Below, piece after piece: positions 56,801 to 60,903 of a stretch of 64,000 nt of DNA (positions within the stretch are counted from its first letter, which is position 1; each line of letters opens with the position of its first letter). The DNA comes from Paenibacillus alginolyticus DSM 5050 = NBRC 15375 (GTDB lineage: Bacteria > Bacillota > Bacilli > Paenibacillales > NBRC-103111). The stretch is taken from the NCBI RefSeq assembly GCF_000422905.1, contig NZ_AUGY01000011.1, positions 1 through 64,000 on the forward strand, in the 5' to 3' direction. A program made the translations under genes and the position numbers. The notes beneath the pieces were generated by a model. That model was not told the DNA's origin and made no database searches. It saw only the letters and a list, made by a program, of their open reading frames with translations.

Positions 56801-57039
56801 CGAGTGATCTTGTTCCGCGGGATTTCATTACACTCAACTTGGATTACAGGCAGAATGGTCTGGGCAGCAACAGTTGTGGACCGGCTCAATCCCCAGAGAA
56901 CACAGTCACATCGGAAGCATTCCGTTTCCGGATGCTGCTTAAGCCATTTCTATCCGAAGATGCCTCACCGGACCGGTTGAGTCATCAAATGAAATTAGAA
57001 GTGAAACAGCTACAACAGGAGGGTACAAACCATGCTTAA
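53869..57039 (+). CDS. lacZ: Beta-galactosidase, GH2 (LacZ type)
   Basis: This 1056-aa enzyme has the five-domain LacZ layout: sugar-binding domain (about 50-225; [20 protein letters not shown]), Ig-like domain, TIM barrel (about 335-630), a second Ig-like domain and the C-terminal small-chain domain (about 770-1040). The acid/base Glu is in [10 protein letters not shown] near 457 and the nucleophile Glu in [11 protein letters not shown] near 521. [10 protein letters not shown] near 345 is also typical. No signal peptide: cytoplasmic. It hydrolyses imported beta-galactosides. The start follows GAGAGGAGAG. It overlaps the next gene by 8 bp, which couples them. Confidence 0.95.
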
Positions 57040-57814
57040 TACACAAGACGTTTTGAACTTATCGGGAAAAATAGCGGTTGTGACCGGCGGTGCCTCAGGG
57101 ATCGGCCTTGCGACCGCTGAACTGCTGGCCAGCTTTGGAGCATATTCCGTCCTTCTAGATATTAACGAAGCGCAGGGTGAACAAGCTGTGGCTGGCATCA
57201 GACAGCAAGGAGGTCAAGCGAGTTTCTACCGCTGTGATGTGTCTTCCTCTGCAGATTGCCAGCGTGTTGCAGCAGAAATTGATGCTGCACACGGACGAAT
57301 TGATATTTTGTTCAACAATGCTGGGATTATTCGTCGTAAAACGGTCGTTGAGCTGGAAGAACGTGATTGGGACCTAGTCATTGATGTCTCCTTGAAGGGC
57401 GTTTATCTGCTGTCCAAATATATCATCCCGATCATGGAGCGTGAGGGCGGAGGCAGCATCATTAACTCCGGCTCAGGTTGGGGACTTAAAGGCGGAGACC
57501 GCGCAGCTGCCTACTGCGCTGCCAAGGCTGGCGTTGTGAATTTAACGCGGGCTATGGCTATCGATCATGGCGTCGCCAACATTCGCGTGAACTGCGTATC
57601 GCCAGGCGATACGGACACGCCGCTGCTGCGTGATGAAGCGAAACAGCTGCAGCGAAACGAGGCCGAATTCCTAATCGCCTCGGCTGGCGGCCGCCCGCTG
57701 GAAAGACTCGGAACACCGCGAGATATCGCCAATGCGGTCCTATTTCTGGCGAGCGACATGTCTTCCTGGGTAACGGGAAGCGTGCTTGTTGTAGATGGCG
57801 GGGGCATTGCTTAA
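57032..57814 (+). CDS. Short-chain dehydrogenase/reductase in the beta-galactosidase operon
   Basis: This is a 260-aa classical [11 protein letters not shown] near residue 16, NNAG near 92, and the active-site Ser and YCAAKAG near 158-162. The C-terminal motif [13 protein letters not shown] is complete. It starts inside the end of lacZ (8-bp overlap) with GGAGGG ahead. Such enzymes oxidise or reduce sugars and polyols (for example at C3 or C5). The coupling to lacZ suggests a role in the same sugar pathway, perhaps before or after glycoside cleavage. The precise substrate is unknown. Confidence 0.88.
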
Positions 57815-57914
57815 GGGCGATTCGCACCTAGCTACGCTTAGCAAGTTTAGAATCTATGAGTTCGTGTTTTTTAAACTACCTTTATAAGTACAACAACGAA
57901 TGGAGGCGTTACCT

Positions 57915-59315
57915 TTGCCTAATAACAGAAATTATGCCCATCCTTATATACCGAATACCGTGCCTGAGGTTCGTGATGCGATGCTGAAGGAAATCGGCCT
58001 GACCTCGATGGATCAGCTTCATGACGCCATTCCAGATAGCTTGAAGCTGAATCGGGAGATGAACCTTCCGCCTGCCATGACGGAATATGAGCTGCGCCGT
58101 CATATAGATGGTTTGCTCGCCAAGAACAAACACGGCGCCGCTTATCTGAATTTCCTCGGAGCGGGCTGCTGGCAGCATTTTATTCCGGCTGTCTGTGACG
58201 AAATCAATCAGCGTTCCGAGTTCGTTACGGCATATGCCGGTGAACCTTATGAAGATCACGGACGATTCCAAACTCTGTTCGAGTACCAAAGTTTAATGGC
58301 TGAGTTGGTTGATATGGACGTCGTTAATGTCCCTACCTTTGACTGGGCACAAGGGGCTTCAACAGCGATTCGAATGGCGGGCCGCATTACCGACCGCAGT
58401 GTTGCACTGCTTCCAAAGTCAGTCGATCCCGACAAAGTCATGATCATTAACAACTACTGCACACCTGTGATGGAGCTGCGTTTTGTTGAAATCGATGAGA
58501 CAACCGGCAAGATGGACTTGAATGATTTGCGCAGCAAGCTATCCAGCGAAATAGCTGCGGTATACTTCGAGAATCCTGGTTACCTTGGGATCATCGAAGA
58601 CCAAGGACAAGAAATTTCGGAGCTTGCTCATTCCGTGAATGCCATCTCCATCGTTGGCGTGGACCCAATCTCACTCGGCGTTCTTCAGCCTCCTAGCCAA
58701 TATGGCGCAGATATCGTCTGTGGAGATTTGCAGCCGCTGGGGATGCATATGAACTACGGCGGCGGGCAAGCCGGATTTATCGCGACACGCGATGAAGAGA
58801 AATACGTCATGGAATACCCTTCACGATTGTTCGGCATCGTGCCGACGGAGGTAGAAGGCGAATATGGCTTCGGCGACGTGGCTTATGAGCGCACATCCTT
58901 CGCGCTTCGTGAGAAAGGGAAGGAGTCCGTTGGTACCCAGACCGCATTATGGGGCATAACAGCAGGTGTCTACTTATCTTTGCTTGGGCCAACTGGTATG
59001 CAGGAGGTCGGCGAGACTATCATGCAGAAGTCGCAGTACGCGGCCAAGAAACTCTCCGCCATTCCAGGCATTTCCCTTCGGTTCGCAGAAACAGCTTTCT
59101 TCAAGGAGTTTGTTGTTGATTTCAACGATACAGGCCTAACGGTTGCTGAAATTAATGCGCGTCTGTCAGAAGCAGGAATATTCGGAGGCAAAGATTTGTC
59201 CGGTTCTTTCCCGGCATGGGGACAATGTGCCCTCTATTGTGTTACTGAAATTCATTCACAGGCTGATCTAGATCGTCTGGCAGACACCATTCAAACCATT
59301 GTTCGCAAACCGTGA
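57915..59315 (+). CDS. Divergent GcvPA-like protein (glycine decarboxylase subunit 1 family)
   Basis: This ~466-aa PLP-fold protein matches the layout of glycine dehydrogenase (decarboxylating) subunit 1: YIPNTVPEVRDAMLKEIGLT at the start, FLGAGCWQHFIPAV near 83, and the large-domain segment YGADIVCGDLQPLGMHMNYGG near 262. Several positions fixed in true GcvPA differ. The YxxYQxE.SQG..Q stretch reads YAGEPYEDHGRFQ, and the QTREQHIRREKATSNIC region reads FALREKGKESVGTQTALWG. TTG 57915 is eight bases after GGAGG. No gcvT or gcvH is near. It forms a pair with the next gene inside a sugar operon. Its reaction is probably not standard glycine cleavage. Confidence 0.75.
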   Translation: MPNNRNYAHPYIPNTVPEVRDAMLKEIGLTSMDQLHDAIPDSLKLNREMNLPPAMTEYELRRHIDGLLAKNKHGAAYLNFLGAGCWQHFIPAVCDEINQRSEFVTAYAGEPYEDHGRFQTLFEYQSLMAELVDMDVVNVPTFDWAQGASTAIRMAGRITDRSVALLPKSVDPDKVMIINNYCTPVMELRFVEIDETTGKMDLNDLRSKLSSEIAAVYFENPGYLGIIEDQGQEISELAHSVNAISIVGVDPISLGVLQPPSQYGADIVCGDLQPLGMHMNYGGGQAGFIATRDEEKYVMEYPSRLFGIVPTEVEGEYGFGDVAYERTSFALREKGKESVGTQTALWGITAGVYLSLLGPTGMQEVGETIMQKSQYAAKKLSAIPGISLRFAETAFFKEFVVDFNDTGLTVAEINARLSEAGIFGGKDLSGSFPAWGQCALYCVTEIHSQADLDRLADTIQTIVRKP

Positions 59316-59343
59316 TCGACATATATAGAGAGGACGGAACGCC

Positions 59344-60903
59344 ATGAAACGAATTCGCAGAGACCATAAAGTCCGTAATTTTCATCAAGCCAAATGGGAT
59401 GAGCCGGTCATATTTGAGCTTCACCGTCAGGGTGAGCGAGGGGTCATTCCGCCAGGAACGGAGGCTGGCATTTCAGCTGAAGTGGGAGACGGGATTGGAC
59501 GTATACCTGTTTCCATGAAACGAAAATCAGCGCCGGCTTTACCCGAAATCGGTCAAGCTAAGGTGCTTCGCCATTATTTGCGCCTATCCCAGGAGACTCT
59601 TGGTTCCGATTTGAATGTCGAGATCGGCCAAGGCACCTGTACGATGAAGTATATTCCGCGCATCAACGAAATGCTTATCCGTACGCCTCATATGATGGAG
59701 CTGCATCCTCTACAGGAGGCTGATTCCGTGCAGGGTATGCTGGAGATTTTCTATAAACTGGACCTTGCGATGCGTGAGATCAGCGGAATGGATGCCTTCT
59801 CGTTCCAACCGAGCAGCGGCACGCAAGCCTTGCTAGCGATGGCTTCCATCGTTCGCGCTTATCATGATTCGCAGGGTGAGGGGGATCAGCGGGATGAGAT
59901 CATTACGACGATTTTCTCCCACCCCTCCCAAGCGGCGACAGCTGCAGTTAAGGGCTACAAAATCATCACACTGCATCCTGATGAAGATGGCTTCCCAGAC
60001 ATAGAGAAGCTGAAGAGTGTCATCTCCGAGCGAACAGCTGGTTTTGTCGTTGCGAACCCGGAGGATACGGGCATCTATAACCACCGAATCCGCGAGTTTA
60101 CCGACCTTGTCCACGAAGCGGGCGGAGTCTGCTTCTACGATCAGGCCAACGCAAACGGCTTGCTTGGCATCACGAGAGCGAAGGAAGCGGGCTTCGACAT
60201 GTGCTTCTTCAATCTGCATAAGACATTTGCGGCTCCTCATATGTGCGGTGGTCCAGCTACGGGTGCACTTGGTGTAAGCGAGGGACTGAAACGCTTCTTG
60301 CCTGGACCGCTTGTGGATTACGACGGAAGCCGTTATGTTTTGACGAATCAGACGGCAGACAGCATTGGCAAAGTTCGCAGCTTCCACGGGGTTGCACAGA
60401 CGGTCCTGCGTTCTTACGCTTGGCTTATGAGCCTCGGTCCGGATGGGCTGAAGGATGTCGCCCAAATTGCGGTTCTGAACAACAATTATCTGTATCATAA
60501 AATCCTGCAAATCCGCGGAGCAAGCGCACCTTATATCAAAGGACGCCGCCTCGAGCAGGTTCGCTACAGCTGGAAGCAGCTTACAGATGAGACAGGTGTC
60601 ACGACAGAGGATATCACTCGCCGGATGTGTGATTTCGGCCTGCACTACTGGACGTCCCATCACCCGTATATCGTGAAGCAGCCGTTTACCTTAGAGCCGA
60701 CAGAGTCGTATTCCAAAGAGGATCTGGACGAATACATCCATGCGCTGGAGCATATTTCGAATGAGGCCTACACACAACCTGATATTGTGCGGTCAGCTCC
60801 GCATAACAGTACCGTTCATCGGAACGACGAGTCGTCTCTAGATGATCCGAAGCAATGGTGCATTACTTGGCGGGCGTATTTGAAGAAGACTCAACTGGTA
60901 TAA
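59344..60903 (+). CDS. Divergent GcvPB-like protein (glycine decarboxylase subunit 2 family)
   Basis: This 519-aa protein matches GcvPB: GQGTCTMKYIPRINE near residue 97, and the PLP-Lys motif NLHKTFAAPHMCGGPATGA near 280 (Lys about 284). The true family has NLHKTFSTPHGGGGPGSGP and DSAHGTNPAS; here the loop is HMCGGPATGA and the second motif is FSHPSQAAT, so the substrate side of the pocket is changed. It has an N-terminal extension of about 35 residues. It lies 28 bp after the GcvPA-like gene, and the two should form the alpha2beta2 enzyme. GAGAGGACGG precedes ATG. A terminator follows at 60954. Confidence 0.78.
   Translation: MKRIRRDHKVRNFHQAKWDEPVIFELHRQGERGVIPPGTEAGISAEVGDGIGRIPVSMKRKSAPALPEIGQAKVLRHYLRLSQETLGSDLNVEIGQGTCTMKYIPRINEMLIRTPHMMELHPLQEADSVQGMLEIFYKLDLAMREISGMDAFSFQPSSGTQALLAMASIVRAYHDSQGEGDQRDEIITTIFSHPSQAATAAVKGYKIITLHPDEDGFPDIEKLKSVISERTAGFVVANPEDTGIYNHRIREFTDLVHEAGGVCFYDQANANGLLGITRAKEAGFDMCFFNLHKTFAAPHMCGGPATGALGVSEGLKRFLPGPLVDYDGSRYVLTNQTADSIGKVRSFHGVAQTVLRSYAWLMSLGPDGLKDVAQIAVLNNNYLYHKILQIRGASAPYIKGRRLEQVRYSWKQLTDETGVTTEDITRRMCDFGLHYWTSHHPYIVKQPFTLEPTESYSKEDLDEYIHALEHISNEAYTQPDIVRSAPHNSTVHRNDESSLDDPKQWCITWRAYLKKTQLV

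Follow-up and report, generated by a model that had tools for sequence, protein, structure and literature searches.

What does a pair of genes resembling glycine decarboxylase do in an operon for sugar import? The question is raised by positions 1-64,000, forward strand, of contig NZ_AUGY01000011.1 of Paenibacillus alginolyticus DSM 5050, a stretch of 64,000 nucleotides referred to here as the window. It contains two adjacent genes, here called PA and PB, that resemble the two subunits of the P-protein of the glycine cleavage system. An earlier, sequence-only reading of this DNA had proposed that they encode an enzyme dependent on pyridoxal 5′-phosphate (PLP) outside canonical GcvP, acting on a new amino-acid or amino-sugar substrate. 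The separate PLP enzyme is borne out by the analysis below, while the amino sugar is not. PA-PB belong to a widespread family of P-protein variants that is probably misnamed, and they probably break down an amine-bearing compound.

Family assignment

PA (57900..59315, 471 amino acids) and PB (59344..60903, 519 amino acids) both lie on the plus strand, and neither gcvT nor gcvH is found beside them in the window, as had been noted earlier. Open reading frames and family matches also agree with the placing of the pair behind lacZ and a short-chain dehydrogenase/reductase (SDR) gene in a sugar-import locus. The pair had been located at 57032..60903. It does lie there, although 57032 is the start of the SDR gene and PA begins at 57900.

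By model score, both proteins are P-protein subunits. PA reaches 495.8 bits against the GcvPA model PRK00451 (cut-off 364) and 206 bits against PF02347, and PB reaches 552.1 bits against the GcvPB model PRK04366 (cut-off 441). Both equivalog thresholds are passed, and under the NCBIfam naming rules PA and PB are each GcvP (glycine dehydrogenase). Annotated plasmid records label proteins of the variant family as aminomethyl-transferring glycine dehydrogenase. The closest solved chains are the P-protein subunits of T. thermophilus (1wyt_A and 1wyt_B). PB also matches the GDC-P, GcvP2_C and class-V aminotransferase models, and the model for KBL, an alpha-oxoamine synthase, is absent among its listed hits in the family model searches. 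In PHROGs, the sole match is a single unnamed family with a 914-position profile. No description of the variant family was found in the open-licence PMC literature, as judged from titles and the openings of abstracts. Some PB hits, for instance in locus L070, show an apparent insertion of 460 bp that lies outside the open reading frame, which begins later; in our reading, a weak match to PA has been fused there with the one to PB.

A separate clade with changed residues

When PB was used as a query against 398 genomes of the window's phylum, with E-values up to 1e-30, matches were found in 252. The matches listed show either at least 50% identity, in 27 genomes, or at most 42%. A plasmid collection holds eight more records with the variant pair, at PB identities of 42-50%, carried by Gemmobacter, Rhodococcus jostii RHA1, R. 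qingshengii, Sphingomonas, Antarctobacter, Paracoccus, Roseicitreum and the archaeon Natronosalvus. The variant clade includes Bacillota, Alphaproteobacteria, Rhodococcus and a haloarchaeon.

Sequences were sorted into variant and canonical rows by their bit score to the window's PB or PA, with a wide gap between the two groups. The 115 variant rows include the window's own sequence twice, so that 114 are distinct; a second, short PB of the same genome (391 amino acids, see below) and locus L185 were excluded. The Bacillales loci among them are the best 80 of 289 relatives, and every fourth of these 80 entered the PB tree. In that tree, of 79 rows, a branch with an SH-aLRT support of 100 sets the 55 variants apart. 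The PA tree (FastTree, also 79 rows) splits 53 variants from 26 canonical sequences with a support of 100, and carries a warning that long branches meet. For both trees the root is not known, the rows were sorted beforehand by score, and fused GcvP was left out. Within these terms the pair does not fall inside canonical GcvP, and the variants form a clade of their own.

The residues on which the two groups differ suggest an altered active site. Of the PB columns in which the variants (115 rows) and the canonical sequences (29 rows) each reach at least 90% fixation, 83 hold the same residue in the two groups and 24 a different one; for PA (115 variant and 26 canonical rows), the corresponding numbers are 43 and 12. 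The catalytic core is retained, as had been noted: the PLP lysine by alignment, Lys293 of PB, is present together with K102, H193 and D266 in all 115 variant and all 29 canonical rows. Within the CTMK motif, C99 and T100 are also kept in 115/115 variants and Met101 in 113/115. Other PB residues, namely R402, R407, T417, H439, T449, D241 and N246, occur in every variant row and are not the canonical norm. Two motif changes reported earlier can be read directly against the canonical PB of the same genome, where PDSAHGTNPAS stands in place of TIFSHPSQAAT in the window and PHGGGGPGAGP in place of PHMCGGPATGA. In PA, the QTREQHIRREKATSN stretch is altered, as claimed, but it is substituted by YERTSFALREKGKESVGTQ and not deleted.

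PA also differs at positions of listed or predicted function in the human enzyme. Tyr164 is listed as an active-site residue in PMC7259800, and the aligned residue is deleted in all 115 variants. That source gives the interface between the human P-protein and the H-protein as a docking prediction, so that the following changes count as supporting evidence only. The equivalent of the predicted H-protein contact Arg373 is Arg in 26/26 canonical PA rows and another residue in at least 95 of the 115 variants, and that of Ile372 is Ala or Gly in 109/115. The equivalent of Lys376 is kept in 86/115, and that of Arg374 in all. In the alignments, then, both pocket and predicted interface columns are changed in the variant PA-PB, which makes the family a natural comparison for establishing which P-protein residues serve glycine and which serve the H-protein.

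Apparent independence from the glycine cleavage system

A variant of this kind could still serve as part of a glycine cleavage system, particularly if it were the only P-protein of its host. In P. alginolyticus it is not the only one: the genome carries a complete canonical set, made up of gcvT-gcvPA-gcvPB (C4:119190-122585) and gcvH (C4:123147), and another GcvH-like gene (93.7 bits) lies apart from the gcv operon, at C4:64648-65001. The genome also holds a second, diverged LacZ-SDR-PA-PB set at C8:155263-161818 (L005:10264-16819). The PB of this copy has 391 amino acids only, with 78% identity to the window PB over residues 1-386, and the three forward frames, followed as far as the end of the contig, show no homologous continuation.

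GcvT turned up in 21 of the 27 variant genomes and was missing from the other 6; a GCV_H match was obtained in 23. In three genomes of high completeness, G067 (99%), G320 (94%) and G024 (94%, with 7% contamination), the variant PB is the only one, and there is neither GcvT nor a convincing GcvH. The same pattern recurs in the less complete G319 (72%) and G284 (61%). G067 and G320 do have partial GCV_H matches above the cut-off (24.1 and 22.6 bits), which we judge to be cross-matches of other lipoyl or biotin domains. In G243 neither GcvT nor GcvH was matched, and two PB-type matches are listed; this genome was left out of the count because the second of these was not assigned. Since the variant-only genomes are drafts, the absence of a single gene is weak evidence. 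Taken together, however, the five genomes argue from their gene content that the variant can work without the H- and T-proteins, and thus that PA-PB can do without the glycine cleavage system. A widespread enzyme family would accordingly be hidden under a probably wrong name, glycine dehydrogenase, and G067, G320 and G024 would be credited with a glycine cleavage that their genomes appear to lack.

Constant and optional partners

In the Bacillales, the gene immediately before PA is an SDR ortholog (65-99% identity) in 78/80 loci, the exceptions being L037 and L041; in the window this gene is at 57032..57814 on the plus strand (PF13561, 223 bits). The sugar genes are less regular. By tblastn, LacZ was matched in 60/80 loci, the GH63-like glycosidase in 31/80, and either of them in 67/80; the figure of 31 is a lower bound, because some of the fetched flanks are too short to reach the GH63 gene. 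Another 10/80 loci match neither LacZ nor GH63 and carry instead genes for a sigma-54 regulator, an amino-acid ABC system of family 3 and an M20 peptidase; the hosts include Lysinibacillus, Viridibacillus, Psychrobacillus and Bacillus badius. Three loci (L041, L075 and L082) belong to neither class on this count; in L075, a LacZ-like gene begins at the edge of the stretch. The constant core is therefore SDR-PA-PB, and the sugar context is optional.

Galactose is probably released at the LacZ-type loci. GalK- and GalT-like genes occur in three sugar-type loci (L067, L069 and L071), and in L134, from outside the Bacillales, the end of a beta-galactosidase gene lies ahead of the SDR and a galactokinase gene comes after PB. 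A sugar is nevertheless unlikely to be the substrate of PA-PB itself, because 10 of the 80 loci combine amino-acid transport with no LacZ or GH63 match. Outside the Bacillales, 0/33 loci matched LacZ or GH63 at the search thresholds, and 12/33 have an APC amino-acid-type permease. The amino-sugar substrate was set aside on these grounds.

Outside the Bacillales, genes were counted over 37 loci for the dehydrogenase and the kinase and over 33 for the other neighbours (by tblastn), some of the stretches being short. A dehydrogenase of the SDR, Zn or aldo-keto type is present in the fetched stretch of 22/37 loci. In L201 and, as a partial gene, in L136, a Zn-dehydrogenase lies directly upstream of PA, and its best model is L-threonine 3-dehydrogenase (TDH), below cut-off. 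The other constant partner there is an ATP-NAD-kinase-family protein (PF01513/PF20143), encoded in 29/37 loci, for instance at L154:10553-11677. This gene was found in 0/80 Bacillales loci within the fetched flanks, and the L154 query gave no match in the P. alginolyticus genome, in a search without a positive control. It hits 13 of 72,556 plasmid records, including all 8 with the variant PA-PB, although in Natronosalvus the two are about 54 kb apart. No solved relative of this protein was found by sequence. The tight linkage to the SDR and the kinase-family protein makes the reaction directly testable.

Proposed reaction and alternatives

The strongest regularity is the pairing of an alcohol dehydrogenase gene with a P-protein-like PLP pair. 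The reading that we favour, though at somewhat less than an even chance, is that the dehydrogenase makes an amino ketone which PA-PB then cleaves with PLP, outside the glycine cleavage system. PA and PB would be the halves of a heterodimeric PLP enzyme on the glycine-decarboxylase scaffold. The dehydrogenase, an SDR in the window, would oxidise a hydroxyl next to an amine-bearing carbon, and PB would bind the product, a beta-keto amino acid or alpha-amino ketone, through an external aldimine at Lys293. Carbanion chemistry as in the P-protein would then break the C-C bond without lipoyl-H-protein and leave the glycine- or methyl-carbanion aldimine, which this scaffold is already able to stabilise. 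Protonation would give glycine or methylamine, and the acyl part would leave as an acid. In the window, the substrate could be the aglycone that remains once the GH63-like enzyme and the beta-galactosidase have trimmed an imported glucosyl-galactoside. Genes found near other members may handle the products: canonical gcv genes, those for acyl-CoA synthetases and the amine oxidase, and the methylamine methyltransferase genes. The heterodimer, the order of the steps, the C-C cleavage and the nature of the substrate are the parts of this scheme that we infer.

Several observations weigh against C-C cleavage after oxidation. In 15/37 loci outside the Bacillales there is no dehydrogenase in the fetched stretch, although some stretches are short, and SDRs are common genes in any case. 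The amine-oxidase neighbour (one case) and the methyltransferase neighbours (two cases) would also fit a simple decarboxylase, and MtbB and MttB are named for dimethylamine and trimethylamine, which the scheme does not make. The ATP-NAD-kinase-family partner is accounted for neither by the scheme nor by a plain decarboxylase. Finally, both PA and PB score above the NCBIfam equivalog cut-offs for GcvPA and GcvPB, and GcvT is present in 21/27 variant genomes.

A plain, lipoyl-independent PLP decarboxylase, which would turn a larger amino acid into an amine and leave to the SDR a later alcohol or aldehyde, is a possibility nearly as likely as the favoured cleavage. Decarboxylation is the parent chemistry of the P-protein, the PLP residues are kept, members occur in genomes without GcvT and GcvH, and a primary-amine oxidase adjoins PA-PB in Gemmobacter (L121). 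The invariant new arginines of PB, R402 and R407, could moreover hold a carboxylate. Yet an amine oxidase is seen in that one locus only. No other gene accompanies the pair in the Bacillales as regularly as the SDR does, and in two distant loci its position is filled by a TDH-like enzyme, a pattern that agrees better with an oxidation ahead of the PLP step. The shared cut-offs and the frequent GcvT would be expected of a further glycine decarboxylase still working for the glycine cleavage system, whose contact with the H-protein is relaxed or altered, as would the mostly kept Lys376 equivalent and the proximity of canonical gcv genes in L142, L144, L147, L148, L151 and L200. This explanation seems quite improbable, because three genomes at least 94% complete hold the variant without canonical PB, GcvT or convincing GcvH, the predicted Arg373 contact is mostly changed and the Tyr164-aligned residue always deleted, and P. 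alginolyticus is already equipped with the complete canonical genes.

A more specific proposal concerns the 5-hydroxylysine of collagen. The GH63-like enzyme and LacZ would strip Glc-alpha1,2-Gal, the SDR would oxidise the C5 hydroxyl, and PA-PB would split C5-C6 to give glutamate and methylamine. The alpha-glucosidase, beta-galactosidase and amino-alcohol chemistry that this route demands would match the window operon, and an amino-acid-uptake version of the locus exists in the ten sugarless Bacillales loci. Glc-alpha1,2-Gal-Hyl is described as a collagen unit in PMC8626586. The route does not, however, account for the acyl-CoA synthetases of distant loci. No M9 collagenase was found in the P. 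alginolyticus genome, in a search without a positive control. In the sugarless loci, the amino-acid-binding protein is closest to the solved chain TTC0807 (3vv5), a Lys/Arg binder, but carries Ser in place of a Glu of that chain. The hydroxylysine route is accordingly unlikely. In its widest form, the favoured cleavage would describe a PLP C-C lyase on the glycine-decarboxylase heterodimer, spread through bacteria and haloarchaea, that acts on amino ketones which a dehydrogenase has made out of hydroxy amino acids or amino alcohols. In Paenibacillus and its relatives this lyase would be linked to a glucosyl-galactoside operon, possibly for using the glycosylated hydroxylysine of collagen; as a whole, this picture is doubtful.

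Comparison with known systems

The nearest known system is the P-protein itself (GcvPA/GcvPB; T. thermophilus 1WYT). The variant shares its two-gene architecture, the PLP lysine, the C, T and K of CTMK, His193 and Asp266, and lies above the cut-offs of PRK00451 and PRK04366. It differs from it as a separate clade with many fixed residue swaps and a partly changed predicted H-protein contact, with members in genomes that lack GcvT and GcvH and with the SDR directly upstream in 78/80 Bacillales loci.

In threonine degradation by tdh-kbl, threonine dehydrogenase is paired with 2-amino-3-ketobutyrate CoA ligase. The variant loci likewise join an alcohol dehydrogenase gene to a PLP-enzyme gene, and in L136 and L201 the dehydrogenase is TDH-like, although below cut-off. 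The PLP enzyme, by contrast, matches P-protein models and not KBL, and the usual dehydrogenase is an SDR. Given these matches, PB may at most work like KBL. A further parallel is the acetoin catabolic operon, which carries AcoX. Here too an ATP-NAD-kinase-type protein and a dehydrogenase stand beside an enzyme that, in the variant loci, is proposed to cleave C-C bonds. The likeness to AcoX is by type only, and a P-protein pair takes the place of the thiamine-diphosphate-dependent E1/E2 complex.

The window operon and other neighbours

The operon-like run that closes the window extends on the plus strand from the glycosidase to PB, according to open reading frames and family searches. It begins with the GH63/MGH1-like glycoside hydrolase (45449..47158; Pfam PF22422), whose nearest solved chains are TTHA0978 and E. 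coli YgjK. A sensor histidine kinase follows (47188..49113; PF06580, PF02518 and HAMP; matched in 30/80 Bacillales loci), together with an AraC-type response regulator (49091..50311; PF00072 and PF12833; 50/80). The import genes encode a family 1, sugar-type ABC solute-binding protein (50352..51710; PF01547; 55/80) and two ABC permeases (51738-52733 and 52730-53542; both PF00528), whose protein clusters occur in 63/80 and 61/80 loci. The GH2 beta-galactosidase (LacZ) gene (53869..57039; PF02836, 367 bits; PF02929, 252 bits) precedes the SDR. After PB, a terminator-like hairpin at 60953..60976, on the same strand, may mark the end of the operon; it comes from a consensus scan only, in which the region has 14 terminator-like sites against a shuffled mean of 7.4.

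Neighbours outside the Bacillales are more varied. An AMP-binding acyl-CoA synthetase is present in 3/33 loci and an M20 deacylase in 2/33 at the search thresholds; L150 and L125 have further M20 genes, recognised through Pfam or annotation. A dimethylamine methyltransferase gene, with that of its corrinoid protein, stands beside the variant cluster at L141:11498-12889, and a trimethylamine-methyltransferase gene at L201:4120-5595. An in-frame TAG interrupts both of these genes, in keeping with a pyrrolysine codon. Canonical gcv genes share the stretch or contig with the variant in L142, L144, L147, L148 and L151, and a GCV_T gene is present in L200. Carbohydrate-type ABC genes lie near the variant in L124, L126 and L127.

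Two further genes recur. A protein cluster typed as DUF436 (PF04260) from its L154 member is found in eight loci (L135, L142, L144, L147, L148, L152, L153 and L154, the last at L154:14455-15012), with a ninth occurrence in L200. A pdxS-type gene, assigned to the SOR/SNZ family (PLP synthase) from its L147 member (L147:1266-2150), lies in the variant clusters of three related genomes, in L142, L144 and L147.

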